Positions 749 through 25,532 of a DNA stretch of 64,000 bases are shown here, piece by piece (position 1 is the stretch's first letter; every line of letters starts with the position of its first letter). Below the pieces are notes generated by a model. The model was not told the origin of the DNA. It ran no database searches and was given only the letters and a program-made list of their open reading frames with translations. The stretch comes from Duganella sp. CF517 (GTDB taxonomy: Bacteria; Pseudomonadota; Gammaproteobacteria; Burkholderiales; Burkholderiaceae_D), in contig NZ_FODC01000001.1 of assembly GCF_900110275.1 (NCBI RefSeq), positions 783,198 through 847,197 of the forward strand, in the 5' to 3' direction. Both the position numbers and the translations under genes were made by a program.

Positions 749-762
749 ATCCCGGTCAGCCG

Positions 763-6693: not shown

Positions 6694-7677
6694 TCACGCC
6701 TCGGCGTCGCAGATGCGGTCGCGGCCCGACGACTTGGCCTGGTACAGGCGCCGGTCGACCCGGTCGAGGAAGACGTGCGGGTCGTCGTGCTCGCCCGGCA
6801 CGATGGTGCCGACGCCGGCGCTGACGGTGACCGTGCGGCCCACGCCCGAGCGCGCGTGCGGCAGCGCCTTGTGCGCCAGCAGCTTGCGGCAACGCTCGGC
6901 CACGTTGCGCGCGGCCGCCTCGTCCGTCGCCGGCAGCAGCAACACGAATTCCTCCCCGCCCAAGCGTGCGCACAGGTCGCGCGAGCGCGAGGCGCCCTCG
7001 TCCAGCGCCCGCGCCACGCGGCGCAGGCACTCGTCGCCCTGCACGTGGCCGTAGTGGTCGTTGTATTGTTTGAAATAGTCGATATCGATGACCACCACCG
7101 ACAACGGCTCGCCGGTGGCGCGCGCCTTGGCCCATTCGACCGGATACAGGGTGTCGAACATGCGGCGGTTGGCGACGTTGGTCAGGCTGTCGCGGTAGGA
7201 CAACACCTCCAGCTCGCGCTGCAGTTGCAAGATCTTGTCCTCGGCCTGCTTGCGCTCGGTGATATCGAACATAAAGCCGACCAGCGAGTCGACGCTGCCG
7301 TCCTCGCGCCGCACCACGTGCACCACGTCGCGGATCCAGACGTAGTCGCCGTCGCGGGTGAGGGCGCGGTAGTCGGCCTCGTGGTCGATGCCCTGCTGCG
7401 ACTGGGCGATGCAGAAGTCGACCGTCTTCTGGCGGTCCTCCTCGTGGATGCGCTCGATCCAGTCGTTGGCCGAGAGCCAGCTCGACTGGCTCCAGCCAAG
7501 CAAGGCCTCGATCTGCGGGCCGATATAACTGAAACCCATGGTGGCCCAGTCGATGCGCCACGGAATGGCGCGGGTCGACTCGAGCAAGGTGCGGTACACG
7601 CCCGGATCGCCAGCGGCGGTCGCGGGGTCTGTCGGCGAAAATAGCATAAGTGAAGTAAGTAAGTGGGGAGCATGCAT
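6694..7677 (-). CDS. PAS-GGDEF diguanylate cyclase
   Basis: A 327-residue cytoplasmic protein predicted to make cyclic di-GMP. Residues about 25-140 form a PAS/PAC sensor domain (ending VGFMFDITERKQAED). A short helix (142-160) links it to the GGDEF domain, which has DIDYFKQYND near 198, an intact active site GGEEF at 240-244 and an inhibitory I-site RSRD at 231-234, exactly five residues upstream. Catalysis and product inhibition should both work. There is no membrane segment. An alternative start is M11. It is transcribed with the binding-protein gene downstream and lies beside the giant adhesin-like autotransporter, a class often controlled by cyclic di-GMP; that link is inference. Confidence 0.92.
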   Translation of the reverse strand: MHAPHLLTSLMLFSPTDPATAAGDPGVYRTLLESTRAIPWRIDWATMGFSYIGPQIEALLGWSQSSWLSANDWIERIHEEDRQKTVDFCIAQSQQGIDHEADYRALTRDGDYVWIRDVVHVVRREDGSVDSLVGFMFDITERKQAEDKILQLQRELEVLSYRDSLTNVANRRMFDTLYPVEWAKARATGEPLSVVVIDIDYFKQYNDHYGHVQGDECLRRVARALDEGASRSRDLCARLGGEEFVLLLPATDEAAARNVAERCRKLLAHKALPHARSGVGRTVTVSAGVGTIVPGEHDDPHVFLDRVDRRLYQAKSSGRDRICDAEA

Positions 7678-7744
7678 TGTGCGCGCAAACGCCCCGCATG
7701 GGAACGCATTTCCGCGCCATCGCGCCGCCCCCGCCCCGCCGTCG

Positions 7745-10700
7745 TCAGAATACCCCCTCCAGCTTCATGCTGTAGCGGTCCAGCGCGCGCCGCTGCTGGA
7801 AGTTGGTGTTGTAACGCAGCCCGAACGAGAACTTGCCGCTGGCGATGAGATCGAGCGCCAGCGTGCCGTCGGTCACCGTGCGGCCCAGCGGCAGCGGCAG
7901 TTGCATGCCCGCCGCCGCGCCCGGCGCGCCGACAAAGCCGGCCCGCACCGTGGTCAGCGCGTTGCCGACATAGCGCTGCAGGCCGACATCGCCGTGCACA
8001 TGCGCCTGGTAGCCGTCGCCGACCACCTGGCGATACCCCAGCTTGGCCACCGGACGCACCCACTTGTGGCTTTCCGAGTAATCGTCCAAGCGCAGGCCGG
8101 TCGCGCCGGCGCCGGCCTCGGCCGCGCCCAGCGCCGACAGCCGCGTCGCCCCCAGGTCCAGCGTCGGCCGGAAGTACAGCGCTGCGCCGGCGCCGAACTC
8201 ATAGGCGTAGCGCAGCGCGCCGCCGACCGCTTTGAGCCGGCGGCTGGCGCTGGCCGTGAAGGCCTCCACCTCGCCATGGCGCCGCGTGTCCTGCGTGGCG
8301 GTGCTGTACGAGGGGATCAACGCCAGCTCGCTGGCGCCGAACTGGTACTTCAGCGCCGCGCCGAGGTGCCACGTCTTGCCCGACGCGTTCCAGCGGCCGC
8401 CGTCGCCGTCCGAGCGGTTGCGTTCGCTGGCGAACGCGCCGCCCAGCGTCCATCCCCCGCCCAGCGCCTTGCGCAGCCCCACCGTGTAGCGATCGGTCTG
8501 CTGCGCCACCTCGCGGTAGTCGGCGCTGGCGCCCTGCTCGCCGCGCTCGCTGTCGTACTGGAACCAGACGGCCTGCTGCTTGTCGCCGAGGCGGTTCTCG
8601 CCATCGTCGGCCAGGATGCGGCCGAAGCGGGCGCCGGCGCGCAGCAGGTCGGCCTGCTGGTGCGCATAGAACTGCGGCGTCATGTCCGACAGCGTGGCGC
8701 GATAGGCCGCCAGCGTTGGCGTGTAGACCAACTGCACCACCTTGCCGGCCAAGGCCTCGCTGCTGCCGGCCAGCTGGATGCGGTTGAAATACTGCCCCAC
8801 CGCTTGCTGCACCGGTCCCATGCCGGCCGGCGCGAAATCGATCGTGTAGTCCAGCGCCGCCGTCTGCGGGTTTGGATAGAGCAACTGGTAGCTGATCACC
8901 GCCGATGGCGCGGTGCTCAGCTGCACGGCGTTGGCCGTCACGCCCATCGCCGCCGTAAACAGCGGCACCTGCGCACGGCCCGGCCGCGCCAGCTGCGGTT
9001 GCAGCAGCGCCACCTTGACGCGCCCGGCCAACGCGGCCGTGCCAGTGATGTCGAGCTGGTCGAGGCGGCCGCTGCCCAGGTCGAGCTCGGCCAATGTCGT
9101 GGCCGAGCTGGCCTGTTGGTAACTGCCGCTCAAGCGGGTCTTCTGCACCAGCCCCGTGTCGCCCGGCGACAGCGTGCCGGCGTTGGCGAACACGCTGCGG
9201 AAGTCGCCCAGCAACAACTGCTCGCCGGCGGCCAGCGTTTGCCCGGCGCCGTTGTTGAGCCGGTTGACGCCGCCGCCCAGGTCGAGCTGTCCCAGCATCA
9301 CGCCCTGGTTGTCGACGACATCGTCGCCGTCGCCGGCGCGCACCGCCCAGCCCTGCCGGCCGTCGGCCACGGCGATGGTGCCCAGGTTGACCAGCGTGTT
9401 GTGGGCGCCGCCGGCCAGCCACACCCCGGTGCCCCCGGTGCCGGCGAAGATCTGCCGGCCCGGCATCAGCGTGATGGTGATGTCGCCCTCGCCGGCGCTG
9501 CCGAGCGATTGCGCCAGCACCGCCACCCCTTCCTTGCCGCCGGCCACGACGTTGCCGTCCAGGGTCAGGCGCACGCCGGCGGCGCTGCCGGCGCCGCCGG
9601 CGCTGCCGGCGAACACCCGGTCGACCGCGCCGCCGCCGCCGCCGAGCGACTGCGCCAGCACGCCGACCGCGCGCGCGCCGCCGACGACGATGTCGCCGTG
9701 CTGGGCGAAGGTGATGGCGCCGCCGTTGCCGCGGTTGGCGCCGCTGAGGGCGACGTCGATGGCGCCGGCCGCCAGGTCGGTGAGCACCGCGCCGCCGCCG
9801 CCGCCGATCGACTGCAGCAGCACGCCGTGCGACAGCGCGCCGCGGGTGACGATGGCGCCGTCGTTGACCACATCGAGGTTGCCGCCGTCGCCGCTGGCGC
9901 CGTCTTTGCCGCCGAGCGACAGCGCCAGCGAGTCGAGCCCGCCGAGCGCGCCCTGGCCGCCGCCGCCGCCGATGCTCTGGATCACCAGGCCGGGCGAAGC
10001 GGCGCCGGCGGTGCTGATGCCGCCGCTGTAGCGGGCGCTGATCGCGCCGCCGTTGCCGGCGGCGCCGCGTTCGGCGCCCAGCGCCAGCACGGCGTCTGCC
10101 AAGCCGGCCGCGGCCGGCGAAGGGGCCGTCGTGGCGGCGCCCCGTTCGACGTTGAGCGTGGTCGTGCCGCCGCCGCCGCCGACCGACTGCACCAGCGCGC
10201 CGGCCGACTGCGCGCCGGTCGTGCCCAGGGCGCCGCGTTGCGTCACCGCCACCGCGCCGCCGCTGCCGCCGACGCCGGCGGCGCCAAGGACATAGTCGAA
10301 CCCTACGCCGCGCGCCGGGTCGAGCTGGACGCTGGTGTAGGAACTGCCGCCGCCGCCGCCGACCGATTGCGCCAGCGACGCGGCCGAGGCCGCGCCGCCG
10401 GTGTAGGACTGGCCCACCAGCGTCGACGACAGCGCGCCGCCGTCGGCCGCCGCCGCCGCGGGCGCCGCCGCGGCGGTGCCCGGCGCCGCGCGCGGCGCCG
10501 CCAGCGCGCCGCTGACGGCGCCGGCGACCGCGCGCGCGCCCTGCCGCAGCACCGATGTGAGCCGCTCCACCACGCTGTCGTTGGACGGCGCCGGCAAGCC
10601 GCCGTCGACTTCGCTGGCGAAGTCGAGGAACAACTCGACGTTGCCGCCGCCGCCGTTGATCGACTGCGCCAGGCTGGCGTGGCTGTTGGCGCCGGTCATG

Positions 10701-13700
10701 ACGATGTCGCCGTTGCCGTTGATGGTGACCGTGCCGGCCGTGCCCTTGGCGCCGTCGCCGCCCAGCGACGTGTCGAGCGCGTACTGGGCCGCCAGCCCGG
10801 CCGGCCCGCCCAGGTTGAGGCCGGCGTTGCCGCCGCCGCCCGACACCGACTGCGCGAAGATGCCGTACGAACCGGCGCCGTTGGCGACGATGGCGCCGCT
10901 GTGGTTGACCGCCACGTTGCCGCCGTCGCCGCCATCGCCGCCGCTGCCGCCGACGGCGACCTGCATCAGCAGCGCCGCCGGCGTCGGATTGGCCACCAGG
11001 CCGCTGCTGATGGCCGCGGCCAGCGCGCCGTTGCCGCCGCCGCCGCCCACGCTTTGCGCCAGCACCCCGTAGGCGCCCGCGCCATCGACCCGGATGGTGC
11101 CGCTGTTGGCGACCGTGACGTCGCCGCCGGCGTTGCCGCTGCCGCCGCTGCCGCCGATGGCCAGCGCCCCGGCCCGGCGCGCGGCCGTGCCGGTGGCGCC
11201 GAACTCGCCGCTGATGCTGGCGCCGCCGTTGCCGCCGCCGCCGCCCACCGATTGCGCGATCACGCCGTGCGCGCCGGCGCCGCCGGTCTGGATCGCGCCG
11301 CCATTGTCGACCCGTACCGCGCCGCCGGTGCCGCCGCTGCCGCCGGCGCCGCCGAGCGCCATCGCGAAGCTGTCGCCGGTGGTCGCGTTGGCGCCGTACG
11401 CGGGCCGGTTCAGGCTGCGCGTCATGCTGCCGTTGCCGCCGCCGCCGCCGACGCTCATGGCCATGATGCCGTGCGCCTGGTCGCCGCTGGTGACGATCAC
11501 GCCGTCCTGCGCGCGCGCGCCGGCGACGTTGTTGACCGCCACCGCGCCGCCGGCGCCGCCGCTGCCGCCGCTGCCGCCGACCAGCATCGACATGTTGTCG
11601 CCGCCCGATTGGCCCGACACCGTCAGCACCGACACCGCGTCGGCGTCGCCGCCGCCGCCGCCGATCGACTGCGCCAGCACGCCGACCGCGCGCGCGCCGG
11701 CCGTCTGCACCGCGCCCAGGTTGTCGACCCGCACCGCGCCGCCGACCGCGCCGGCGCCGCCGGTGCCGCCGACCACCACCGCCAGCCGGCTCGGCGCCTG
11801 TCCCTCCTTGGCCGCCATGCCGACCGCGTCGAGCGACATGGCGGCGTTGCCGCCGCCCCCGCCCAGGCTCTGCGCCAGCACCCCGTGCGCCGACGCGCCG
11901 GTGGTCGCGACCAGGCCGCGGTTGTCCACCCGCACCGCGGCGCCGGCCATGCCCACGCCGCCGGTGCCGCCGAGGCTGACGGCCATGCCGCTGTTGCCCT
12001 GTTTCAGGCCGCCGGTGCTGGTGCCGCCGCCGGTGCCGCCGCCGCCGCCCACCGACTGGGCCACGATGCCGATCGCGTTGTCGCCGCTGGTGCCGACGTC
12101 GGCGCCGCTGGCGACCGTGACCGCGCCGCCGGTGCCGCCGGCGCCGCCGGTCCCGCCCAGCGCCAGCGCCAGGCTCGGCGCGGCGCCGAATTTGCCTACC
12201 GTGCTGGCGCTGCCGCCATTGCCGCCGCCGCCGCCCACGCTTTGCGCGAACAGCCCGTGCGCGCCGGCGCCGGCGGTGACGACCAGGCCGGCGGCGTCGA
12301 TGCCGACGGCGCCGCCGCTGCCGCCCTCGCCGCCCTCGAGGCCGACGGCGACCATCATCTGTTGCGCCGGCACGTCCTTCTGCTCGACGGCGGCGGTCAC
12401 CTGCAGCGCGTTCGACGAGCTGTTGCCGCCGCCGTTGCCCAGCGACTGCGCCAGCACGCCGAACGCGCCGGCGCCGGCGGTGGCGATCTCGCCGCTTTGG
12501 CGCACCGCGACGTCGCCGCCGCGCCCGCCGCTGCCGCCGACGCGGCCCAGCGTCATGCCCAGGCCGCCGCCGCTGTTGAGCATGATGTTCATGTCGAGGC
12601 CGGCGTTGCCGCCGCCGCCGCCCACCGATTGCGCCAGGATGCCGATCGCCGAGGCGCCGGCCGTGCCGATGCGCCCGGCCTGGGTGACCGTCACCGCCGC
12701 GCCGTCGCCGCCGTCGCCCGGCTGGCCGCCGACGGCCAGCTTGAAGCCGGCGTTGTGGTTGGTGCCGGCGGCCGGGTCGGCGTCGGCGTAGGTGAAGCCC
12801 AGGTTGAAGCTGGCGTTGCCGCCGCCGCCGCCGAGCGACTGCGCCAGGATGCCGTAGCCGCCGGCCCCGGCGGTGCTGATGTCGCTGTAGTTGGCCACCC
12901 GCGCCGCGCCGCCGTCGCCGGCGCTGCCGCCGGCCCCGCCCAGCACCAGGGTGGCGGCGAAGCCGGCGCCCTGGTCGGCCGAGCCGGCCTTGGTGTAGGC
13001 CACCACGAAATTCATGCCGGCGTCGCCGCCGCCGCCGCCGATGCTCGAGGCCTCGATGCCGTGGCCGCTGGCGCCGGCGGTGGCGATGGCGCCGGTGGCC
13101 GCGCCGGCGCCGCCGCGGACGATGGCGACCTGGCCGCCGTGGCCGCCGCCGGCCCCGCTGCCGCCGACCCCGACCGTGATGGGCGAGCTGGCCGACGCGA
13201 ACGAGGCGGTCACGTTCATGCCGCCGTTGCCGCCGCCGCCGCCGATGCTTTGGGCCACCACGCCGCGGCCGTAGGCGCCGCTGGCGGCGACCGCGCCGTC
13301 GGCCTCGATGGCGACGTCGCCGGCGTCGGCGCCGCGGCCGCCGCTGCCGCCCACGCCGACGGCGATGGCGACGTCGCCGCGGCCGCCGGCGTCGCTGTCG
13401 CCCTGCATATTGAGCGCGGCCGTCGCGTTCAGGCCGCCGTTGCCGCCGCCGCCGGCGATGCTCTGCGCCACGATGGCGTCGGTGCGGTCGCCGCTCACGC
13501 CGGTGTAGCCGTGGCGCACCAGCGAGACGTCGCCGCTGGCGGCGCCGCTGCCGCCGACCCCGCCGATGCCCAGGGTCACCGACGGCATGCCTTGCTGCTT
13601 GGCGATCACCAGCTGGCCGCTGACGTTCATGCCGCCGTTGCCGCCGCCGCCGCCGACGCTTTGCGCCAGCACGCCGGCGCTGTAATTGTCCTTGCCGGCG

Positions 13701-16700
13701 TCGCCGGCCATGGTCACCGTGCCGCCGACCTCGGCGTGCACGGCGCCGCCGGTGCCGGCGTCGCCGGCCGCGCCGCCGACCCCCACCACCAGCCCGGCCG
13801 ACGACGAGATGCCGCCGCTGACGTTGATGGCGCCGTTGCCGCCGCCGCCGCCCACCGACTGCGCCAGCACCGCCGCATGGCCGGCGCCGCCGGCGCGGAT
13901 GTCGCCGCCGTCGACGGTGAGCTCGACCGTGCCGGCGTCGCCGCCGCCGCCGCCGTAGCCGCCCACCCCCGCCACCAGCGCGTGGCCGCTGCTGCGCCCG
14001 GCCGCGTAGACGATCCCGCCGCTGACGTTCAGGCCGCCGTTGCCGCCGCCGCCGCCGACCGACTGCGCCGCCACGCCGTGCGAGGCGGCGCCGGCGCGCG
14101 CGGTCAGCTGTTGCGGATAGCGCGGGTCGGGCGCCGACATCGGCACCGCCGCCACGCTGCCGGTGAACTGGACGCGGACGTCGCCGGCGTCGCCGCCGGC
14201 GCCGCCGAAGCCGCCGATGCCCAGCGTCGCGCCGGCCGCGTTGGTGCCGCCGGAGTCGGTGCTGATCGACAGGCTCTGGCTGATATTGACGGCGCCGCTG
14301 CCGCCGCCGCCGCCGACCGACTGCGCCAGCACGCCGTTGGCGTCGTCGCCCATGGTCAACAGGTCGGCGCGGGCCACCAGCGTGACGTCGCCGCCGTTGC
14401 CGCCGCCGCCGCCGAAGCCGCCCAGGCCGACGCCGATGGCCGCGCCGCTGCCGCCGCTGACGAACAGGCCGCCGCTGACGTTCAGGCCGCCGTTGCCGCC
14501 GCCGCCGCCGAGCGACTGCGCCAGCAGCGCGCTCGAGTGGTCGCCGGCGGTGGCGATGCCGGCGCCGCTGAAGCTGCTGCGCACCGCGCCGCCGTCGCCG
14601 CCGGCGCCGCCGAAGCCGCCCACGCCGAGCGCGACCGACTTGATCCCGCTGGCGCCCTGCGCCACGCCGACCAGGCCGGTGACGTTGATGCCGCCGTTGC
14701 CGCCGCCGCCGCCCACGCTTTGCGCGGCCACGCCGGGCGCGTGGTCGCCGCCGGAGCGCACGCTGCCGGTGACGTCGCTGCTGACGTCGCCGCCGGCGCC
14801 GCCGCCGCCGCCGGCGCCGCCCAGGCCGACGGCCACCGTGCCGGCGCCGCCGCTGCTGCTCACGCCGACCAGGCCGGTCACGTTCAGGCCGCCGCTGCCG
14901 CCGCCGCCGCCCAGCGACTGCGCCAGCACCGCGGCCGCGCCGTCGCCGCCGGTGCTGACGGAGGCGGCGACGACGTTGTCGACCCGGCCGCCGTTGCCGC
15001 CGCGCCCGCCGCTGCCGCCGATGCCCACGCCCACCGCGCCGGCGTTGTTGGTCGACAGCGCCACCGCCCCGGTCACGTTCAGCGCGCCGCTGCCGCCGCC
15101 GCCGCCGATCGATTGCGCGGCGATGCCGACGCTGTCGGCGCCCCCGGTCCACACCGTTCCCGTGACCCGGTTGGCCACCGCGCCGCCGTCGCCGCCGTCG
15201 CCGCCGGCGCCGCCGATGCCCAGCGCCAGCGCGCCGGTGCCGCCGCCCGACAGCGCCACCGCGCCGCTGACGCTGATGCCGCCGCTGCCGCCGCCGCCGC
15301 CGAGCGACTGCGCCAGCACGCCGCCGGCCCCGGCCTGGTGGGTGGCGACGCTGCCGGTCACCGTGTTGTCGACCCGGCCGCCGGCGCCGCCGCCACCGCC
15401 GCTGCCGCCGATGCCCAGCGCCAGCGCCGCCGCGTTCGACGAGCTGGCGCTGACCGCGCCGGCGACGGCCATGCCGCCGTTGCCGCCGCCGCCGCCGAGC
15501 GACTGCGCCACCACGCCGGCCGCGCCGCTTTCCCAGGTGGCGATCTGGCCGGCGTAGTCGACCCGCACCGCGCCGCCGGCGCCGCCGCCGCCGCCGCTGC
15601 CGCCGATGGCCACCGCCGCCGCCGCCGCCGCCGCGCCGCCGGGGGTGCCGGCGCCGCCGGCGCCGACGCTGAAGCCGCCGTTGCCGCCGCCGCCGCCGAC
15701 CGACTGCGCCAGCAGCGCGGTGGCGTTCACGCCCAGCGTCGAGAGGTCGCCGCGCACGTCGGCGCTGACGGCGCCGGCCGCGCCGCCGCCGCCGCCGCTG
15801 CCGCCCAGGCCGACGCTGACGGCGCCGGCGTTGGCGCCGCTGCCGCCGAGCGCGGCGGCGACGACGAAGCCGCCGTTGCCGCCGCCGCCGCCGACCGATT
15901 GCGCCACGATGGCCGCCGCGTTGTCGCCCTGCGTGGTGACGGTGTTGGCCACCGTCAGCGCCACGCCGGCGCCGCCGCCGCCGCCGCCGGCGCTGCCGCC
16001 GAGGCCGACGCTGGCCGCCGCCGCGCCGCCGCCTGCGCCGCCGGCGGCCACGCTGACGGCAAAGCCGCCGTTGCCGCCGCCGCCGCCCACCGATTGCGCC
16101 ACGATGCCGCCGGCGCCGTCGCCGTCGGTGAAGATGGCGCCCGCGGTGGACGCCTTGACCGCGCCGCCGTCGCCGCCCAGGCCGCCGCTGCCGCCCAGCC
16201 CCAGCGCCACGCTGGCGGCGTTGCCGCCGGCGCCGGCCAGCGTGACGGCCAGCGCGTAGCCGCCGTTGCCGCCGCCGCCGCCGACCGATTGCGCCAGCAC
16301 CGCGCCGGCCTGCCGCCCCAGCGTGGTGACGCGCCCGCCGACGCCGAGCTCGACCGCGCCGCCGTCGCCGCCGCCGCCGCCGCTGCCGCCCAGGCCGACG
16401 CTGACGGCGGCGCCGTTGGTGCCGGCCCCGGCCGCGCCGCTGCTGGCGCTGTAGCCGCCGTTGCCGCCGCCGCCGCCGATCGACTGCGCCGCCACGCCCA
16501 GCGCTTGCTCGCCGTCGGTGTGGACCGCGCCGCCGACCAGCGCCGCCACCGCGCCGCCGTCGCCGCCGCCGCCGCCGCTGCCGCCCAGGCCGGCGTTGAG
16601 CGCGCCGCTGCCGGTGCCGCCGGCGCCGGCGGCGGCGGCCACGCTGTAGCCGCCGTTGCCGCCGCCGCCGCCGAGCGACTGCGCCAGGAACGCCGCCGAA

Positions 16701-19700
16701 CGCGCCCCCAGCGTGATCAGGTCGGCGTCCGCGCTGGCGCGCACCTGGCCGCCGTCGCCGCCAGCGGCGCCGCCGCCGCCCAGGCTGAGCGACACGCCGG
16801 CGCCGGCGCCGCCGGCCGCGCCCGCGCCGGCCGCCACGCTGTAGCCGCCGTTGCCGCCGCCGCCGCCGATCGATTGCGCCAGCAGCGCCGGCGCGTCGTC
16901 GGCCCGCGTGACGATGCCGGCGGTGGCGGCGGCGCTGACCGCGCCGCCGCGGCCGCCGCCGGCGCCCTGTCCGCCCAGGCCGATGGCGATGCCGGCCGCG
17001 CCGCTGCCGGCGGCGGCGCCGCCGGCCGCCACGCTGTAGCCGCCGTTGCCGCCGCCGCCGCCGACCGACTGCGCCAGCAGGCCGGCCGACTGCCGCCCCG
17101 CCGTGTCGATGGTGTTGCGCACCGTCACCTCGACCGCGCCGCCGTCGCCGCCGCCGCCGCCGGTGCCGCCCAGGCCGATGGCCACCGCGGCGGCCGCGCC
17201 GCCGGCGCCGGCCGCCGCCGCCGTCACGCCGTAGCCGCCGTTGCCGCCGCCGCCGCCGATCGATTGCGCCAGCACCCCGGCCGACTGCGCGCCGCCGGTC
17301 TGGATCGCGCCCGTCACCAGCGCCGTGACGGCGCCGGCGTGGTTGCCGCCGCCGCCGTCGCCGCCCAGGCCGAGGCTGATGGCGCCGCTGCCGGTGCCGG
17401 CGCCGGCCGCGCCGGCGGCCACGCTGAAGCCGCCGTTGCCGCCGCCGCCGCCCACCGATTGCGCCACGAACGCCGCCGCGCGCGCGCCGGCGGTGGTGAT
17501 GGCGCCGGCGGCGCTGGCGTCGACGTCGCCGCCGGTGCCGCCGACGGCGCCCTTGCCGCCGACCGCCAGCGACACCGCGCCGCTGCCGGCGCCGGCGCCG
17601 GCGATGCTGCCGGCCACGCTGTAGCCGCCGTTGCCGCCGCCGCCGCCGACCGATTGCGCCAGCACGCCGCCGGCGTCGTCGGCGCCGGTGGTGATGACGG
17701 CGTCGGCGCCGGCCGCCAGCGTCACCTTGCCGCCGCTGCCACCGGCGCCGCCGGCGCCCCCGAGGCTGAGGCCGACGCCGGCGCTGCCGGCCCCGGCCCC
17801 GGCGACGTCGGCCGCGATGACGAAGCCGCCGCTGCCGCCGCCGCCGCCGACCGACTGCGCCAGCACGCCGACGGACTGGCGGCCGGCCGTGTCGACGCTG
17901 GCCGTCACGTTGAGCGCGACCGCGCCGCCGGCGCCGCCGCTGCCGCCGCCGCCGCCCAGGCCGACGCTGACGGCGGCGCTGCCGCCGCCGGCGCCGGCCG
18001 CCGCCGCGCTGACATTGAAGCCGCCGCTGCCGCCGCCGCCGCCGATCGATTGCGCCGCCACCCCGAGCGACTGCTCGCCGCCGGTGCGCACCGCGCCGTC
18101 GACCCGGGCGGTGACGGCGCCGGCGCGGTTGCCGTTGCCGCCGGCGCCGCCCAGGCCGACGCTGATGGCGCCGCTGCCGGCGCCGGCGCCGGCGGCGCTG
18201 CCGGCGACGCTAAAGCCGCCGTTGCCGCCGCCGCCGCCCACCGATTGCGCCACGAACGCCGCCGCCCGCGCGCCGGCGGTGGCGAGCGCGCCGCCGGCGG
18301 CGGCGCTGACGTCGCCGCCGACGCCGCCGGCGCCGCCGCTGCCGCCCACCGACAGCGACAGGGCGGCCGCGCCGCCACCGGCCCCGGCCGCCGTGCCGGC
18401 CACGCTGAAGCCGCCGTTGCCGCCGCCGCCGCCGATCGATTGCGCCAGCACCGCGCCGGCATCGTCGCCGCCGGTGGCGATGGCCGCCAGCGCCGACACG
18501 CGCACGGTGCCGCCGTCGCCGGCGGCGCCGCCGCTGCCGCCCAGGCTGGCGCCCACGCCGGCGCCGCCGACCCCGGCCCCGGCCGCGTCGGCCGTGATGG
18601 CGAAGCCGGCGTTGCCGCCGCCGCCGCCGATCGATTGCGCGATCAGCGCGCCCGACTGGTCGCCGGCGGTGCCGATGGTGGCGCTCACGGTCAGCGCGAC
18701 GTCGCCGCCGTGGCCGCCGCTGCCGCCGGTGCCGCCCATGCCCAGGCCGACCGAGCCGGCGCCGGCGCCGGCGCCGGCCGCGCCGGCGGTGACGGCGAAG
18801 CCGCCGTTGCCGCCGCCGCCGCCGATCGATTGCGCCGCCACGCCGGCCGACTGGGCGCCGCCGGTCCAGACCGGGCCGGCCACCTCGGCCGTGACGTCGC
18901 CGGCGCGGTTGCCGCTGCCGCCGCCGCCGCCCACGCCCAGCGTGTAGGCGCCGTTGCCCACGCCGGCGCCGGCCGCGCCGCCGGCCACGCTGAAGCCGCC
19001 GTTGCCGCCGCCCCCGCCCAGCGATTGCGCCAGGAACGCCGCCGAGCGCGCGCCCAGCGTGGTGAGCGGGCCCAGCGCGCTGGCCGCGACGTCGCCGCCG
19101 GTCGCGCCGCTGGCGCCCTGGCCGCCCAGCGACAGCGCCACCGCCGCCGCGCCGCCGCCGCCGCCGGCACCGCCGGCGGCCACGCTAAAGCCGCCGTTGC
19201 CGCCGCCGCCGCCCACCGATTGCGCCAGCAGCGCGCCGGCATCGTCGCCGCGGGTGGCGAGGGCCGCCGCCGCCGTGGCGCGCACCGTGCCGCCGCTGCC
19301 GCCGACCCCGCCCGCGCCGCCCAGCGCCAGCGTGACGGCGGCACCGCCGCCGCCGGCCCCGGCCGCGCCGCCGCTGATGCTAAAGCCGCCATTGCCGCCG
19401 CCGCCGCCGATCGATTGCGCGATCAGCGCGCCGGACTGGCGGCCGAAGGTGTCGACGGTGTCGGCCACCGCCAGGCTGACGTCGCCGCCGGCGCCGCCGC
19501 CACCGCCGGTGCCGCCCAGGCCGGCGCTGATGGCGCCGGCGCCCCCGCCGGCCCCGGCCGCCGCGGCCGCCACGACGAAGCCGCCGTTGCCGCCGCCGCC
19601 GCCGACCGATTGCGCCACCACGCCGGCCGACTGGCCGCCCTGGGTTTGCACCGCGCCGGCGACGCGCGCGTCGACCCCGCCGCCGCTACCGCCGCCGCCG

Positions 19701-22700
19701 CCGCCGCCGCCCAGGCCGAGGCTCACGCCGACGCCGGCCGCGCCGGCCCCGGCCGCCGCGCCGGCCACGCTGAAGCCGCCGCTGCCGCCGCCGCCGCCGA
19801 CCGACTGCGCCACGAACGCCGCCGAACGATCGCCGACGGTCAGCAGCGGGCCGCTGGAGGCGGCGTCGACGCCGCCGCCGGCGCCGCCGCTGCCACCCTT
19901 GCCGCCGAGCGCGGCGCTGATGCCGGCGCCCACGCCGACGCCCGCGCCGGCGCCGCCGGCCACGCTGAAGCCGCCGCTGCCGCCGCCGCCGCCGATCGAT
20001 TGCAGCAGCACGCCGGCGGCGTCGGCGCCGGCGGTCTGCACCACCGACGCCAGGCGCGCGTAGACGTCCTTGCCGGCGCCGCCGCCGCCGGCCGCGCCGC
20101 CGATGCCCAGCGCCACCGCGCCGCCGGCGACGGTGCCGGCCGCCACGGTGGCGCTGACGGCATAGCCGCCATGGCCGCCGCCGCCGCCCACGCTCTGGCC
20201 GACGATGCCGGCCGAGCCGTCGCCCAGGGTGGTGACGCTGCCGCCGGTGGCGAGCGTGACGGCGCGCTGCTCGCCGTCGCGCCCGCCGTTGCCGGCGCCG
20301 CCGCCGCTGCCGCCGACGGCCGCCGCGACGCCGCCGGCGGCCCCGCCGGCGGCGCTCAGGCTGGCGGCGACGGTGGCGCCGCTGTTGCCCCCGCCCCCGC
20401 CGATGCTTTGCGCCAGGATGCCGGCCGACTGCGCGCCGCCGGTCAGCAGGTCGCCGTGGTAGGCCACGCTCACCGTGCCGCCGTTGCCGCCGTCGCCGGC
20501 GCTGCCGCCGACGGCGAGCGTGACGGCGGTGGCGGCCACGCCGCCGGCCGCGCCGGCCGCCACCGTCAGGCCGCTGTTGCCGCCGCCGCCGCCGACCGAT
20601 TGCGCGACCACCCCGCCCGCGCCGGCGCCGCGCGTTTCGACGTCGCCGACCAGCGCCACGTCGACCTGGCCGCCGCGGCCGCCGCGGCCGCCGGCGCCGC
20701 CCAGCGCCGCGTTGAGCGCGGCGGCGGCGCCCCCGCCGGAGGCGGCCGCCGCCGCCACCGTCATGCCGCCGTTGCCGCCGCCGCCGCCCACGCTTTGGAC
20801 CACCACGCCGCCGGAGCGCTCGCCCAGCGTGAACACCGAGCCGTCGAGCGTGACGTCGGCGCGGCCGCCGTCGCCGCCGTCGCCGCCGGCGCCGCCGACG
20901 GCCAGCGCCAGGCCGGCGCCGCCGAGCGCGCCCATGGCGCCGCTGGCGGCCACCGTGGCGCCGCCGTTGCCGCCGCCGCCGCCGACCGACTGCGCCAGCA
21001 GCGCGCTGGCATTGGCCCCGCGCGTCTCCAGATGGGCGGCCAGATCGGCCGACACGGCGCCACCGGCGCCGCCGCCGCCCGCCGTGCCCCCCACCGCCAG
21101 GCCCAGCGCGATGCCGTCGCCGACCGTGCCGGCCGCCGCCATGCCGGCGCCGCCGTTGCCGCCGCCGCCGCCGACCGATTGCAGCACCACGGCGGCCGCG
21201 CCGTCGCCGCCCGTATAGACGTCGCCGCGGCCGTCGAGCGCGACCTGGCCGCCGGCGCCGCCGCGCGCGCCGCCACCGCCCAGCGCCACCGACAGCGACA
21301 CGCCGACGCCGACGCTGCCCTGCAGCGCGCTGCCGCCGTTGCCGCCGCCGCCGCCCACCGATTGCGCCAGGATGCCGGTGGCGCGCGCGCCGGTGGTGAC
21401 GATCAGCGACGGCGCCGCCGCGCCATCGCTCAGGCGCAACGCGACGTTGCCGCCGACGCCGCCGGCGCCGCCGCCGCCGCCCAGCGCCAGCCCGGCCAGC
21501 AGGCCGCCCGCGTAGGCGCCGCCGCCGTTGCCGCCGCCGCCGCCGACCGATTGCGCCAGCAGCGCCGCGGCATCGTCGCCGGCGGTGTGGATGATGCCGG
21601 CCTGGGCGCCGCCGACCGTGCCGCCGTCGCCGCCGGCGCCGCCGCCGCCGCCGATCGCCACCTGGCCGCCGGCGGTGCCGCCGTCGCCGCCGCCGCCGCC
21701 CACCGATTGGGCGAAGATGCCCACCGCGCCGGCGCCGCCGGTCTCGATCGCGCCGCTGTTGTCGAAACTGACGGCGCCGCCGTTGCCGGCGGCGCCGCCG
21801 CGTCCGCCGATGCCGAGCGCGCCGCCGGACGAGCCGCCGCTGCCGCCGCCGCCGCCGACCGACTGCGCGTACAGCGCGGCCGAGCGCGCGCCTTCGGTGG
21901 TGACCGCGCCGCTGTTGCTGATCGACACGCCGCCGGCGTCGCGCGCCAGGCCACCGCCGGCGCCGCCGCTGCCGCCGATCGCCGCCAGCCCGGTGGCGCC
22001 GCCGCCGCTGCCGCCGCCGCCGCCGATCGACTGCGCCATGATGCCGCGCGCGGCGTCGCCGGCCGTCTCGAGCGCCCCGGCGTTGGCCACGCGCACGTTG
22101 CCGCCGACGCCGCCGCCGTCGCCGCTGCCGCCCAGCGCCGACAGCCCGGCGCTGGCGCCGCCGGCGCCGCCGCCGCCGCCGATCGACTGCGCGAAGATGG
22201 CCGCGCTGCCGTCGCCGCGGGTGGCGATGCTGGCGCCGGCGCTGTTGGTCACCAGGACGTCGCGGCCGTTGCCGCCGACCGAGCCGCTGCCGCCGAGCGC
22301 GTACACGCCGCCGGCCCCGGCGCCGGCGCCGCCGCCGCCGCCGATGCTTTGCGCGAAGATCCCGTGGGCGTCGTCGCCGCTCGCCGGCGCCGCGCCGACC
22401 ACATTGGCGCCGGTGGCGATGGCCCCGCTGTTGCGCACGGTGACGGCGCCGCCGTCGCCGCCGGATGCGCCGGCGCCGCCGATCGCCACCACGCCTTGGC
22501 CGCCGCTGGCCGAACCGCCGCCGCCGCCGATCGACTGCGCGAAGATGCCGTGCGAGCCTTCGCCGGCGGTGGTGATGTCGGCCGCGCTGGCGACCGTCAC
22601 GGTGTTGCCGGCGCCGCCGCCGGAGGCCGTGCCGCCGATGCTCGCCAGGCCGCTGGCGGAACGCGAATTGCCGCCGCCGCCGCCGATGCTCTGCGCCAGC

Positions 22701-24226
22701 ACGCCGTGGGCGCGCGCGCCCGAGGTGGTGATGGCGCCGCCCTCGTTGTCGATGCTGACGGTGCCGGCGTCGGCGCCGGCCGCGCCCGACGCCCCCATCG
22801 CCACCAGGCCGGCGGCCGCGCCGCTGTCGCCGCCGCCGCCGCCGATGCTTTGCGCCACCACGCCGGCCGAGTAATCGCCCTTGGTGACGATGTTGGAGCC
22901 GGCGCCGGTGGCGACGGCGACGTTGCCGCCCTTGCCGCCCTGTTCGGCGCCGCCGCCGAAGGCGACCACCAGCGCCCCCGCCGAGCCGCCGTTGCCGCCG
23001 CTGCCGCCGATGCTCTGCGCCAGGATGCCGTGCGCCGCCACGCCCTCGGTGACCACGGTGGCGTCGTTGCGCACGCTCACCGCGCCGCCGTCGCCGCCCT
23101 TGGCGCCGCTGCCGCCGGCGCCGCCGACCACCGCCCAGCTGCCGCCGCCGTCGCCGGCCGAGCCGCCGGTGCTCAGCGCGTAGATGCCGTGCGCCGAATC
23201 GCCGGCGGTGCCGATGGCGCCGGCGTTGGCGACGTTGACCGTGCCGCCGGCGCGGGCGGCGCCGCCGCGGCCGCCGGACGAACCGCCGATCACGGACCAG
23301 CCGTCGCCGCCGTTGCCGGCGTCGCCGCTGCGGCTGAACGCGTACAGGCCGTGGGAATTGGTGCCGCCCATGGTGACGGCGACCTCGTTGCGGACGTTGA
23401 CGTTGCCGCCCTGGCCGCCGTCGCCGCCGGCGGCGGCGTCGATGCCGTACAGCGAGTAGGCGTCGCCGCCGGCGCCGCCACGGCCGCCGACGCTGCCGAC
23501 CAGGATGCCGGCCGTGTTGGCGGCGCTGCCCGTGACGCTGCCATGGGCGCGGCCGATGACGAGCGGCGCGCCGGGGTTGGACGGGTCGCGGTTGTCGCCG
23601 CCGGCGCCGCCGTCGTCGCCGGCGGTGGCGTCGCGGCCGATGGTGCCGACGAAGGGGATCTTGACGCCGTAGCCGTCGCGGCCGTTGGAGCCGCCGCGGC
23701 CGACCGCGACGCTGTTGACCAGGCCGCTCGCCTGCACGCTCGGCGTCACCGCGCCCACCTGCGGATTTTTCGGCGGCCGCGGCAGCGGGTTGGCCTCCTG
23801 CTGCGCCAGTACGACCACGTCCTGCGGCGTGCCCTGGTCCGACGCCGGCGCCGTGCTCAGCCGGATGTTGACCTGCGACACCATGTTACTGTGCGCGTCG
23901 CGCACCACCGACACCACCTGGTACTCGAGGATGGTGCCCGGATGGGCCGGATCCTCCATGAACAGGGTGCTGCCGGGCGTGGTCGTGAGCAGGATGCCGA
24001 CCGCGTCGGCCGTCAGCGCGTAGGCCGGGTTGCCTTTGGGGTCGTTGATGATGGCGACCACTTCGACGTCCTGGTTGGTGGCCGGATTGGTGACGACGTC
24101 GCCGACCTTGGTGCCGGGCGTGGCCGCCGTCCCCGCCATGGCCGAGGACGACAGCAACAAGGCCGGGACCAGCGGAGCGAGGATGGAGCAGGACAGGCGG
24201 AGGGGGTTGACGGCGGCGTATTTCAT
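7745..24226 (-). CDS. Giant glycine-rich repeat autotransporter (5493 aa)
   Basis: A single open frame encodes a type V secreted surface protein. Residues 1-31 are a signal peptide ending in SSSAMA|G. Residues about 32-160 form a non-repetitive exported domain. Residues about 275-4912 are roughly 70 glycine-rich units of 60-70 residues, each carrying a variant of A-Q-S-(V/I/L)-GGGGGNGG. Residues about 4920-5210 form a non-repetitive stalk (LSPGDTGLVQ and similar). The last ~278 residues are an autotransporter beta-barrel ending in a C-terminal phenylalanine (YSMKLEGVF), as outer-membrane proteins do. No protease motif is visible. Role is inferred as adhesion, biofilm or surface coat. The gene is monocistronic, with an AT-rich promoter upstream. 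The frame is uninterrupted, so the protein is probably made. Confidence 0.93.
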   Translation of the reverse strand: MKYAAVNPLRLSCSILAPLVPALLLSSSAMAGTAATPGTKVGDVVTNPATNQDVEVVAIINDPKGNPAYALTADAVGILLTTTPGSTLFMEDPAHPGTILEYQVVSVVRDAHSNMVSQVNIRLSTAPASDQGTPQDVVVLAQQEANPLPRPPKNPQVGAVTPSVQASGLVNSVAVGRGGSNGRDGYGVKIPFVGTIGRDATAGDDGGAGGDNRDPSNPGAPLVIGRAHGSVTGSAANTAGILVGSVGGRGGAGGDAYSLYGIDAAAGGDGGQGGNVNVRNEVAVTMGGTNSHGLYAFSRSGDAGNGGDGWSVIGGSSGGRGGAARAGGTVNVANAGAIGTAGDSAHGIYALSTGGSAGDGGGSWAVVGGAGGSGAKGGDGGAVSVRNDATVVTEGVAAHGILAQSIGGSGGNGGSAGALVVAFGGGAEQGGKGGNVAVATGAGSNIVTKGDYSAGVVAQSIGGGGGDSGAAAGLVAMGASGAAGADAGTVSIDNEGGAITTSGARAHGVLAQSIGGGGGNSRSASGLASIGGTASGGGAGNTVTVASAADITTAGEGSHGIFAQSIGGGGGSASGGQGVVAIGGAGASGGDGGAVTVRNSGAIATGANVVGAAPASGDDAHGIFAQSIGGGGGAGAGAGGVYALGGSGSVGGNGRDVLVTNSAGASIATRGDGSAAIFAQSIGGGGGAGGASAGLSALGGSGDGGGVGGNVRVANAGALETAGDAARGIMAQSIGGGGGSGGGATGLAAIGGSGGAGGGLARDAGGVSISNSGAVTTEGARSAALYAQSVGGGGGSGGSSGGALGIGGRGGAAGNGGAVSFDNSGAIETGGAGAVGIFAQSVGGGGGDGGTAGGQVAIGGGGGAGGDGGTVGGAQAGIIHTAGDDAAALLAQSVGGGGGNGGGAYAGGLLAGLALGGGGGAGGVGGNVALRLSDGAAAPSLIVTTGARATGILAQSVGGGGGNGGSALQGSVGVGVSLSVALGGGGARGGAGGQVALDGRGDVYTGGDGAAAVVLQSVGGGGGNGGAGMAAAGTVGDGIALGLAVGGTAGGGGAGGAVSADLAAHLETRGANASALLAQSVGGGGGNGGATVAASGAMGALGGAGLALAVGGAGGDGGDGGRADVTLDGSVFTLGERSGGVVVQSVGGGGGNGGMTVAAAAASGGGAAAALNAALGGAGGRGGRGGQVDVALVGDVETRGAGAGGVVAQSVGGGGGNSGLTVAAGAAGGVAATAVTLAVGGSAGDGGNGGTVSVAYHGDLLTGGAQSAGILAQSIGGGGGNSGATVAASLSAAGGAAGGVAAAVGGSGGGAGNGGRDGEQRAVTLATGGSVTTLGDGSAGIVGQSVGGGGGHGGYAVSATVAAGTVAGGAVALGIGGAAGGGGAGKDVYARLASVVQTAGADAAGVLLQSIGGGGGSGGFSVAGGAGAGVGVGAGISAALGGKGGSGGAGGGVDAASSGPLLTVGDRSAAFVAQSVGGGGGSGGFSVAGAAAGAGAAGVGVSLGLGGGGGGGGSGGGVDARVAGAVQTQGGQSAGVVAQSVGGGGGNGGFVVAAAAAGAGGGAGAISAGLGGTGGGGGAGGDVSLAVADTVDTFGRQSGALIAQSIGGGGGNGGFSISGGAAGAGGGGAAVTLALGGAGGVGGSGGTVRATAAAALATRGDDAGALLAQSVGGGGGNGGFSVAAGGAGGGGGAAAVALSLGGQGASGATGGDVAASALGPLTTLGARSAAFLAQSLGGGGGNGGFSVAGGAAGAGVGNGAYTLGVGGGGGSGNRAGDVTAEVAGPVWTGGAQSAGVAAQSIGGGGGNGGFAVTAGAAGAGAGAGSVGLGMGGTGGSGGHGGDVALTVSATIGTAGDQSGALIAQSIGGGGGNAGFAITADAAGAGVGGAGVGASLGGSGGAAGDGGTVRVSALAAIATGGDDAGAVLAQSIGGGGGNGGFSVAGTAAGAGGGAAALSLSVGGSGGAGGVGGDVSAAAGGALATAGARAAAFVAQSVGGGGGNGGFSVAGSAAGAGAGSGAISVGLGGAGGNGNRAGAVTARVDGAVRTGGEQSLGVAAQSIGGGGGSGGFNVSAAAAGAGGGSAAVSVGLGGGGGSGGAGGAVALNVTASVDTAGRQSVGVLAQSVGGGGGSGGFVIAADVAGAGAGSAGVGLSLGGAGGAGGSGGKVTLAAGADAVITTGADDAGGVLAQSVGGGGGNGGYSVAGSIAGAGAGSGAVSLAVGGKGAVGGTGGDVDASAAGAITTAGARAAAFVAQSVGGGGGNGGFSVAAGAAGAGTGSGAISLGLGGDGGGGNHAGAVTALVTGAIQTGGAQSAGVLAQSIGGGGGNGGYGVTAAAAGAGGAAAAVAIGLGGTGGGGGDGGAVEVTVRNTIDTAGRQSAGLLAQSVGGGGGNGGYSVAAGGAAAGSGAAGIAIGLGGQGAGGGRGGAVSAAATAGIVTRADDAPALLAQSIGGGGGNGGYSVAAGAGAAGGAGAGVSLSLGGGGAAGGDGGQVRASADADLITLGARSAAFLAQSLGGGGGNGGYSVAAAAGAGGTGSGALNAGLGGSGGGGGDGGAVAALVGGAVHTDGEQALGVAAQSIGGGGGNGGYSASSGAAGAGTNGAAVSVGLGGSGGGGGDGGAVELGVGGRVTTLGRQAGAVLAQSVGGGGGNGGYALAVTLAGAGGNAASVALGLGGSGGLGGDGGAVKASTAGAIFTDGDGAGGIVAQSVGGGGGNGGFAVSVAAGGAGGGAAAASVGLGGSAGGGGGGAGVALTVANTVTTQGDNAAAIVAQSVGGGGGNGGFVVAAALGGSGANAGAVSVGLGGSGGGGGAAGAVSADVRGDLSTLGVNATALLAQSVGGGGGNGGFSVGAGGAGTPGGAAAAAAAVAIGGSGGGGGAGGAVRVDYAGQIATWESGAAGVVAQSLGGGGGNGGMAVAGAVSASSSNAAALALGIGGSGGGGGAGGRVDNTVTGSVATHQAGAGGVLAQSLGGGGGSGGISVSGAVALSGGGTGALALGIGGAGGDGGDGGAVANRVTGTVWTGGADSVGIAAQSIGGGGGSGALNVTGAVALSTNNAGAVGVGIGGSGGRGGNGGRVDNVVAASVSTGGDGAAAVLAQSLGGGGGSGGLNVTGLVGVSSSGGAGTVAVGLGGAGGGGGAGGDVSSDVTGSVRSGGDHAPGVAAQSVGGGGGNGGINVTGLVGVAQGASGIKSVALGVGGFGGAGGDGGAVRSSFSGAGIATAGDHSSALLAQSLGGGGGNGGLNVSGGLFVSGGSGAAIGVGLGGFGGGGGNGGDVTLVARADLLTMGDDANGVLAQSVGGGGGSGAVNISQSLSISTDSGGTNAAGATLGIGGFGGAGGDAGDVRVQFTGSVAAVPMSAPDPRYPQQLTARAGAASHGVAAQSVGGGGGNGGLNVSGGIVYAAGRSSGHALVAGVGGYGGGGGDAGTVELTVDGGDIRAGGAGHAAVLAQSVGGGGGNGAINVSGGISSSAGLVVGVGGAAGDAGTGGAVHAEVGGTVTMAGDAGKDNYSAGVLAQSVGGGGGNGGMNVSGQLVIAKQQGMPSVTLGIGGVGGSGAASGDVSLVRHGYTGVSGDRTDAIVAQSIAGGGGNGGLNATAALNMQGDSDAGGRGDVAIAVGVGGSGGRGADAGDVAIEADGAVAASGAYGRGVVAQSIGGGGGNGGMNVTASFASASSPITVGVGGSGAGGGHGGQVAIVRGGAGAATGAIATAGASGHGIEASSIGGGGGDAGMNFVVAYTKAGSADQGAGFAATLVLGGAGGSAGDGGAARVANYSDISTAGAGGYGILAQSLGGGGGNASFNLGFTYADADPAAGTNHNAGFKLAVGGQPGDGGDGAAVTVTQAGRIGTAGASAIGILAQSVGGGGGNAGLDMNIMLNSGGGLGMTLGRVGGSGGRGGDVAVRQSGEIATAGAGAFGVLAQSLGNGGGNSSSNALQVTAAVEQKDVPAQQMMVAVGLEGGEGGSGGAVGIDAAGLVVTAGAGAHGLFAQSVGGGGGNGGSASTVGKFGAAPSLALALGGTGGAGGTGGAVTVASGADVGTSGDNAIGIVAQSVGGGGGTGGGTSTGGLKQGNSGMAVSLGGTGGVGMAGAAVRVDNRGLVATTGASAHGVLAQSLGGGGGNAAMSLDAVGMAAKEGQAPSRLAVVVGGTGGAGAVGGAVRVDNLGAVQTAGARAVGVLAQSIGGGGGDADAVSVLTVSGQSGGDNMSMLVGGSGGSGGAGGAVAVNNVAGARAQDGVIVTSGDQAHGIMAMSVGGGGGNGSMTRSLNRPAYGANATTGDSFAMALGGAGGSGGTGGAVRVDNGGAIQTGGAGAHGVIAQSVGGGGGNGGASISGEFGATGTAARRAGALAIGGSGGSGNAGGDVTVANSGTIRVDGAGAYGVLAQSVGGGGGNGALAAAISSGLVANPTPAALLMQVAVGGSGGDGGDGGNVAVNHSGAIVANGAGSYGIFAQSVSGGGGNAGLNLGGPAGLAAQYALDTSLGGDGAKGTAGTVTINGNGDIVMTGANSHASLAQSINGGGGNVELFLDFASEVDGGLPAPSNDSVVERLTSVLRQGARAVAGAVSGALAAPRAAPGTAAAAPAAAAADGGALSSTLVGQSYTGGAASAASLAQSVGGGGGSSYTSVQLDPARGVGFDYVLGAAGVGGSGGAVAVTQRGALGTTGAQSAGALVQSVGGGGGTTTLNVERGAATTAPSPAAAGLADAVLALGAERGAAGNGGAISARYSGGISTAGAASPGLVIQSIGGGGGQGALGGLDSLALSLGGKDGASGDGGNLDVVNDGAIVTRGALSHGVLLQSIGGGGGAVLTDLAAGAIDVALSGANRGNGGAITFAQHGDIVVGGARAVGVLAQSLGGGGGAVDRVFAGSAGGAGSAAGVRLTLDGNVVAGGKEGVAVLAQSLGSAGEGDITITLMPGRQIFAGTGGTGVWLAGGAHNTLVNLGTIAVADGRQGWAVRAGDGDDVVDNQGVMLGQLDLGGGVNRLNNGAGQTLAAGEQLLLGDFRSVFANAGTLSPGDTGLVQKTRLSGSYQQASSATTLAELDLGSGRLDQLDITGTAALAGRVKVALLQPQLARPGRAQVPLFTAAMGVTANAVQLSTAPSAVISYQLLYPNPQTAALDYTIDFAPAGMGPVQQAVGQYFNRIQLAGSSEALAGKVVQLVYTPTLAAYRATLSDMTPQFYAHQQADLLRAGARFGRILADDGENRLGDKQQAVWFQYDSERGEQGASADYREVAQQTDRYTVGLRKALGGGWTLGGAFASERNRSDGDGGRWNASGKTWHLGAALKYQFGASELALIPSYSTATQDTRRHGEVEAFTASASRRLKAVGGALRYAYEFGAGAALYFRPTLDLGATRLSALGAAEAGAGATGLRLDDYSESHKWVRPVAKLGYRQVVGDGYQAHVHGDVGLQRYVGNALTTVRAGFVGAPGAAAGMQLPLPLGRTVTDGTLALDLIASGKFSFGLRYNTNFQQRRALDRYSMKLEGVF
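14895..20172 (-). repeat. Core array with strict 195-bp period (28 units)
   Basis: Measured at the same point of each unit (the AAC/AGC codon after the glycine run), successive units fall at 14895, 15090, 15285, 15480, 15681, 15876, 16071, 16266, 16461, 16656, 16851, 17046, 17241, 17436, 17631, 17832, 18027 and on to 20172. Of 27 intervals, 25 are exactly 195 bases (65 codons) and two are 201. Outside this core, spacing varies (for example 192, 198 and 213). Confidence 0.92.
16050..19850 (-). repeat. Higher-order four-unit repeat (about 780 bp, five copies)
   Basis: Within the core, units cycle through four types recognisable by the residues before the glycine run: GARSAAF(L/V)AQS, G(A/E)QS-x-GVAAQS, GRQSGA(L/V)(I/L)AQS and (G/A)DDAGA(L/V)LAQS. 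The cycle occurs five times in order. First-type units lie at 19782, 19002, 18222, 17436 and 16656, that is 780, 780, 786 and 780 bases apart. Confidence 0.85.
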
Positions 24227-24274
24227 GGTGGTTTCCTGGCGGGCGGGCGGGCGCGACGCGGCCCGGAGCGGGAA

Positions 24275-24303
24275 ACTTTATATTTAATTTTTTGACATGT
24301 CAA
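24275..24303 (-). promoter_or_regulatory. Putative sigma-70 promoter of the autotransporter, overlapping a TTGACATGTCAA palindrome
   Basis: In an AT-rich island (24276-24320) inside very GC-rich DNA, the minus strand reads TTGACA (24298-24303) and then, after 15 or 17 bases, TATAAA (24277-24282) or TAAAGT (24275-24280). The -35 box is half of a perfect 12-bp palindrome (24292-24303), which could bind a regulator. The leader to the ATG is about 40 bases. Confidence 0.55.
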
Positions 24304-24457
24304 ATTTTTAATTTTAATGTCGAGACCACAATTTTCGGCGCCGACCCGCACGGTGGGCCGCGCCGGGGCGCGTATCGCGCGCCACGTACCCCGGAAATGT
24401 GCTAGCGGAATGTGGTATTTTTGAAACAATCGCCCGCCGCCAGGCGCTGGCCAGGCC

Positions 24458-25366: not shown

Positions 25367-25464
25367 TGCCAAAGCGGTCCCCGTTGGAAGTCGTCGTCGT
25401 AGCGACCAGCTTGCCTGATTTTCCCGCCGCCGGGGTGGTGCGCCGCGCAGATGGCGCCGGTTTA

Positions 25465-25482
25465 CCCCCCTGAAATGGGGGG
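25465..25482. other. Hairpin CCCCCC-TGAAAT-GGGGGG
   Basis: A perfect six-base-pair G/C hairpin with a six-base loop lies between the response regulator stop and the LysR start. It has no T run, so it is not a classical terminator. It could be a weak terminator, an mRNA 3' stabiliser or part of the lysR promoter region. Confidence 0.45.
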
Positions 25483-25532
25483 CCACGACCGCGCCGCCAC
25501 CATCGGGCCGGCGCGGCCGGCGGCGCGCGGCG

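Follow-up and report, generated by a model that had tools for sequence, protein, structure and literature searches.

The window analysed here, a stretch of 64,000 nucleotides from Duganella sp. CF517 (contig NZ_FODC01000001.1), carries on its minus strand a single gene for an autotransporter of 5493 amino acids (aa). The protein is no one-off but belongs, as a large representative, to a family that is scattered and little described. Taken together, the evidence makes it probable that this is a type Va autotransporter whose passenger forms an anchored rod, part β-helix and part glycine-helix bundle, with an adhesion-type role, and that the gene was gained horizontally. A broader proposition has, in our view, a little better than an even chance: that a scattered family of giant autotransporters shares a three-layer solenoid (a β-helix, an in-register polyglycine-II bundle and, in units of 65 aa, a hairpin fin), with units that are position-specific across phyla and a middle that grows by lineage-specific blocks of 2-5 units.

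The gene and its product

The open reading frame (ORF) had been singled out in an earlier examination of the DNA letters (the sequence-only reading) and is present as described there; its strand, not given at the time, is minus. The plan then proposed, a signal peptide, a repeat passenger of about 70 units and one C-terminal barrel with a terminal Phe, is supported: the N-terminus is hydrophobic and resembles a signal peptide (judged by eye), motifs of the QS[ILV]GGGGG type number 67, 69 or 68 according to which of three slightly different patterns is used, and a single PF03797 match over its cut-off is followed by a chain end reading YSMKLEGVF (Phe 5493). Without residues 1-31 the chain has 5462 aa, a computed mass of 480 kDa, a pI of 4.84 and zero Cys. 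The barrel match is the sole PF03797 match across the 7.06-Mb genome, and apart from it no Pfam family was found at E 0.01 in aa 1-602, 603-4420 or 4410-5493. A trimeric (YadA-type) autotransporter is not indicated: the C-terminal 534 aa match PF03797 alone at that threshold and no YadA anchor domain. The barrel and the C-terminal Phe point to a type Va (monomeric) autotransporter, the passenger of which would be exposed at the surface. The junction between array and barrel lies in an autochaperone- or linker-like position and might act as such.

Assembly error or contamination is an unlikely source of the ORF, because the longest exact internal repeat of the gene measures 53 nt and the DNA on either side of it is syntenic with that of two relatives. 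The claim that the protein is among the longest autotransporters has to be withdrawn, since BigE with 10,429 aa (PMC3419190) and a relative on a Novosphingobium plasmid (L175; 6093 codons, 81 motifs; additional to the 81 relatives fetched) both exceed it. All 56 uncut ORFs among those 81 relatives are shorter than the window protein; one ORF cut by the ends of its locus (L149) exceeds it, at 5680 aa.

The stop-free frame had been taken as a sign of purifying selection, an argument that we reject: the antisense strand is open as well over 7538..24295 (5585 aa), with 0 stops inside the span of the coding sequence (CDS), because A-ending codons are almost absent. GC content reaches 83.7% per kb within the gene, GC content at third codon positions is 0.93-0.98 by segment, and GGC codons number 1552. 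With independent codon positions, 17.5 sense and 5.4 antisense stops would be expected, and 0 sense stops were observed inside the CDS; the sense frame is open beyond chance, yet its openness by itself is not strong evidence. The unit-by-unit collinearity with relatives from another class and another phylum, described below, makes a better case for purifying selection.

Anatomy of the repeat array

Of the 67 motif spacings, 53 fall at 60-72 aa, with 28 of them at precisely 65 aa; 10 fall at 50-59 aa, and a variant motif accounts for each of the four longer ones. Spacings are mostly 52-56 aa close to both array ends and 60-72 aa (commonest 65) inside. Runs of three or more GGX triplets number 77, compared with 5.0 +/- 2.0 in 500 shuffles, and the GGX register holds its position from unit to unit, with mixed and partly charged X residues (A 49, S 30, G 27, D 25, T 12, R 10, and others).

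In the core, identity between units reaches its maxima at intervals of four units (0.625 at lag 4; 0.545 at lag 3 and 0.538 at lag 5), with a permutation p of 0.0002 that is the smallest value reachable with 5000 permutations. Differences at four-fold sites are alike for units of the same phase (0.164) and of different phase (0.167), and hence do not date the duplication. When the window units were compared with 392 units from nine relatives, the nearest unit came from another species, and not from elsewhere in the window protein, for 10 of units 0-10 and for 16 of the 21 units assessed in the range 44-66; in the range 17-36 this held for 2 of 20. In unit-level alignments, window units 38-66 pair gap-free with units 28-56 of a relative from a gammaproteobacterial metagenome-assembled genome (MAG; L142), and units 37-66 pair, with two skips, with units 13-40 of a relative from a Geobacteraceae MAG (L124). 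Collinearity scores lay above all 60 unit-shuffled nulls in each of the 4 relatives tried out of 81. Because unit closeness across species and unit-level alignment agree, the array has conserved, collinear ends and a middle lengthened by duplication of four-unit blocks. Other block lags were found in relatives: 3 in L144 and L131 (also the multiple 6), 5 in L110 and 2 in L103, with a weak lag of 6 in L142 (p 0.012), whereas 9 of the 14 relatives tested (out of 81) show nothing under p 0.05; some of the 14 were picked for their periodic look, and the p-values are uncorrected for that choice.

Predicted fold of the passenger

The sequence-only guess of a β-solenoid gains support from two AlphaFold2 models, and in the model of four consecutive units these stack as a β-helix accompanied by a glycine-helix bundle that had not been foreseen. 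One unit would contribute one β-helix rung of three short strands and, alongside it, two polyglycine/polyproline-II (PPII) helices, GGGGGNGG and GGxGGxGGxGG, which would stack across units into the bundle; units of 65 aa would add a β-hairpin, stacked as a third layer. The passenger is therefore predicted to be a rod that is part β-helix and part glycine-helix bundle resembling the snow-flea antifreeze protein. Across the core Gly tracts of the four-unit model, ten-residue means of the predicted local distance difference test (pLDDT) are at least 95, and structural matching finds the same bundle in both separate models, to within 1.3-1.7 Å. The best structural matches of both models are ice-binding proteins (springtail/snow flea antifreeze, 7jjv and 3bog), while Foldseek returned no significant match of the four-unit model to any PDB chain. 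The match list of the aa 32-470 model consists mostly of β-helix proteins and scarcely covers the N-terminal domain (aa 32-123). The PDB was also searched by sequence, with no match for the N-terminal-domain alignment A3 (26 of 27 candidates, the window protein included), for a further alignment, A2 (98 of 138 candidate stretches), or for the C-terminal 534 aa. The layer spacing of a β-helix and that of a polyglycine-II bundle are about 4.8 Å each; with a rise of about 0.48 nm per rung, about 68 rungs would give a rod of roughly 33 nm, to which its two ends would add.

A scattered family of relatives

A two-unit profile scan of genome contigs recovered at least 78 loci, and the taxonomic spread is a lower bound. 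By record titles, the matches listed are mostly from Alphaproteobacteria, and they include Gammaproteobacteria, a few Burkholderiales (Hydrogenophaga, Allopusillimonas, Xenophilus), Desulfobacterota-type MAGs, Planctomycetota, Verrucomicrobiota and one Synechococcus. An earlier barrel-based scan of genome contigs gave 41 pattern matches with no relative among them. The family is recognised by tandem QS[ILV]GGGGG units 52-65 aa apart, which the window protein has; the median motif spacing is 60-67 aa in 68 of the 80 relatives with at least five motifs, and the chain ends in F, W or Y in 60 of the 67 that are uncut C-terminally (a count of end residues, not of barrels). Where annotation is present, it reads 'autotransporter outer membrane beta-barrel domain-containing protein'. 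One subfamily, to which the window protein belongs, is marked by a VGDxVTNP-type domain at the N-terminus; the pattern of this domain was found in 26 of the 65 relatives uncut at the N-terminal end (L098, L123 and L124 look like variants), and none of the 26 members of alignment A3 matches Pfam or NCBIfam at E 0.01.

The family proved rare when sampled evenly: of 398 further genomes of the order, 3 have a match to the repeat (E 1e-15) and 7 a match to the C-terminus (E 1e-8), and A3 has a match in 5 of 397 genomes of the phylum (E 1e-10), with the N-terminal match being full-length in 2. Repeat genes in two genomes, G398 (L094, L095) and G109 (L207), lie close to contig ends or in pieces, so that the family is probably undercounted in draft genomes. 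Long ORFs with QS-type glycine repeats were also seen in Synechococcus sp. UW140 (L158) and in two Singulisphaera MAGs (L123, L134); L158, in which GGX runs are few (22% of units), may be a different kind of protein.

The locus and the origin of the gene

At the site occupied by about 16.85 kb in the window, the two genomes nearest at the locus have 124 bp (G075) and 109 bp (G076), and both flanks match them at 88.6-94.9% DNA identity. Among the other 73 genomes of the genus, the C-terminus (E 1e-3) and the repeat (E 1e-10) are both absent, which fragmentation does not explain, because 15 of the 73 are single-contig assemblies. No trace of a mobile element was seen in the intergenic alignments or in 450 bp around the 5' edge; the 3' edge was viewed in the alignment only.

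In a tree of the C-terminal region (65 rows: 64 of the 81 relatives plus the window protein, omitting relatives cut C-terminally or shorter than 900 aa as well as L098, L123, L155, L158 and L166), the window protein groups with the Geobacteraceae sequence (support 100/99) and then with the gammaproteobacterial one (99/92). Constraining it with six sequences taken to represent its own order (four assigned by computed kinship and two named Burkholderiales, a group named after the tree was seen) was rejected by the approximately unbiased test (p-AU 1.7e-36). Identity to the Geobacteraceae sequence is 45% over the C-terminal 621 aa. Seven genomes of the same order have a match, and in none of them does identity exceed 30% (G109, which scores best, reaches 27%). 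Horizontal gain is the simplest reading, in which the gene would have entered the intergenic site between the LysR and GGDEF genes with its own promoter-like site (Table 1), this lineage being the presumed recipient; repeated loss elsewhere rather than gain here may also account for the pattern. The 14-bp palindrome at the promoter-like site was considered as a regulon site and dismissed, since its single occurrence in the genome is at chance level (a reversed control pattern also occurs once). The downstream PAS-GGDEF gene might hint at a tie to biofilm control, to which we give little weight because G075 and G076 have the neighbourhood but lack the autotransporter; a co-evolved operon with the GGDEF gene is not favoured, as LysR, GGDEF and SBP genes occur together in these two genomes.

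Table 1. Features of the autotransporter gene and its locus (window positions; pTM, predicted template modelling score)
Feature	Position	Strand	Basis
Autotransporter CDS, 5493 aa	7745..24226	-	ORF listing, translation
Signal peptide-like segment, aa 1-31, ending AMA/GT (slash, presumed cut)	24134..24226	-	by eye
Conserved all-β N-terminal domain, VGDxVTNPxTG type, aa 32-123	23858..24133	-	alignment A3, AlphaFold2
Low-confidence linker, aa 129-160	23747..23842	-	pLDDT < 50 at model residues 98-129
Predicted fold of aa 32-470	22817..24133	-	AlphaFold2, pLDDT 84.3, pTM 0.67; PPII-bundle match at model residues 213-439
QS[ILV]GGGGG repeat array, aa 459-4912	9491..22852	-	motif counts; end of last unit by eye
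Five tandem copies of four-unit block (260-262 aa each), aa 1409-2710	16097..20002	-	lag analysis
Predicted fold of four-unit block	17657..18442	-	AlphaFold2, pLDDT 97.1, pTM 0.86
Units 37-66, aa 2711-4858, near one-to-one with L124 and L142 units	9653..16096	-	unit-level alignment
C-terminal junction, array to barrel, aa 4913-5219	8570..9490	-	47.5% identity to L124 over aa 4900-5240
PF03797 β-barrel, aa 5220-5473	7808..8569	-	E 1.9e-22, over curated cut-off
Extra segment, replaced by 109-124 bp in two relatives	7610..24457	-	locus alignment
Sigma-70-like promoter, TTGACA-17-TAAAGT	24275..24303	-	consensus match only, 10/12; 1 found vs 0.2 expected
14-bp palindrome TTTGACATGTCAAA, overlapping -35 hexamer	24291..24304	.	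sole genome site at <= 1 mismatch
LysR-type regulator, flanking	24458..25486	-	family match
PAS-GGDEF protein, next downstream gene, same strand	6694..7677	-	family match
SBP_bac_3 protein, after GGDEF gene	5843..6625	-	family match

Elsewhere in the window, 26216-33108, upstream of the LysR gene, encodes a sensor kinase carrying Reg_prop/Y_Y_Y domains, a small protein whose PEP-CTERM match falls slightly short of the cut-off and a large protein that has both an alginate-lyase match and an Ig-like domain; this is perhaps a polysaccharide-use locus. A tryptophan halogenase family protein (PF04820, E 1.1e-162) is encoded at 2917-4416. Four tRNA-Gly(GCC) genes and one tRNA-Cys gene cluster at 41770-42350; an adaptation of this cluster to the GGC codons of the autotransporter gene was considered and discarded, the genome having 5 tRNA-Gly(GCC) matches and the other 73 genomes 2 to 7. 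At 41401-41700 a Phd/YefM-like antitoxin ORF is followed by the start of a PIN/VapC-like ORF, which becomes unrecognisable just before the tRNA cluster (by eye).

Discussion

We propose that the chain would be exported by Sec via its N-terminal signal peptide and that the C-terminal barrel would insert in the outer membrane, because this route is general to type Va secretion; the long passenger would thread outward, fold as a rod and remain on the cell. In this lineage, blocks of four units were duplicated in tandem and so made the middle of the array longer. A role of the rod in adhesion or cell-cell association seems most likely, and a stiff, acidic, cysteine-free rod as modelled would fit adhesion or self-association.

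An ordinary parallel β-helix, with the Gly tracts as flexible loops and a PPII bundle that AlphaFold produced as an artefact, would still yield a surface adhesin. It is unlikely but a serious contender: the Foldseek and PDB sequence searches returned nothing significant and β-helix proteins dominate the matches of the N-terminal model; however, the recurrence of the same bundle in two separate models, the high pLDDT of its Gly tracts and the positional conservation of the GGX register argue against flexible loops. The anchored rod also has to be weighed against a passenger that is cleaved and released as a secreted matrix or effector protein. Some autotransporters are indeed released from the cell, and the junction at 8570-9490 could be a place of cleavage, but the lack of any other Pfam domain in the chain and a 480-kDa repeat build better suited to a structural rod make release rather improbable.

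We find it hardly credible that the frame is open from composition alone and belongs to a repeat that has decayed or is not expressed and does not function as a protein. The high GC content and the open antisense strand would agree with this, but the absence of sense stops where 17.5 are expected, the unit order and identity kept relative to other species, the barrel match and the promoter-like site all oppose it. An ice-binding surface protein, which like the springtail antifreeze proteins would use the bundle's flat face, is suggested by the best structural matches and is just as improbable, because the mixed, partly charged X residues form no obvious ice-binding face and function does not follow from a shared fold.

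For the anchored rod with its glycine-helix bundle, the secretion route is a known one, and the novelty lies in the predicted passenger fold, which, if true, would provide a means of building long, stiff, cysteine-free surface rods and is directly testable with short recombinant fragments. The fixed ends and expandable middle also offer a natural experiment on the lengthening of surface rods. To our knowledge, the solved type Va passengers are plain β-helices. A non-exhaustive search of the open-access literature turned up no description of the QS[ILV]GGGGG repeat family and nowhere linked an autotransporter to a polyproline/polyglycine-II bundle: PMC5895577 contains both words, but 'polyglycine' is confined to reference titles, and the word 'autotransporter' is absent from PMC13243192, a paper on PPII bundles. 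If the models are right, an autotransporter passenger with such a bundle would be new, as far as the literature searched goes.

The closest counterparts are the gammaproteobacterial (L142), Geobacteraceae (L124) and Novosphingobium sp. RL4 (L175) relatives. All three share the unit motif and its 52/65-aa spacing with the window protein; in L142 the likeness extends to the N-terminal domain, the junction and the barrel region, and in L124 to the C-terminal region; unlike them, the window protein has a five-fold expansion of a four-unit block, and it stands alone in its genus. An autotransporter on pSymB of S. meliloti (CP140955.1, U8C43_10665, 2288 aa) resembles it in its 17 QS motifs, median spacing of 64 and annotated barrel, but differs in a C-terminal identity of 25%, less than half the length and a place beside a LytTR/histidine kinase pair. 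BigE, too, is a giant autotransporter that contains internal repeats and shows conservation with proteins of betaproteobacteria; it is set apart by its description (PMC3419190), which gives eight 69-aa repeats, an eight-fold passenger segment, a BrkA-like passenger group and an EstA-type barrel group. The springtail and snow flea antifreeze proteins share GGX tracts with the window protein, for which our models also predict stacked PPII helices, and PE_PGRS domains and the tip of phage S16 are glycine-rich PPII-bundle proteins as well (PMC13243192). This likeness concerns the GGX tracts and the predicted fold alone and implies neither common descent nor ice binding; unlike these proteins, the window protein would have its PPII bundle woven into a parallel β-helix and exported by a barrel.
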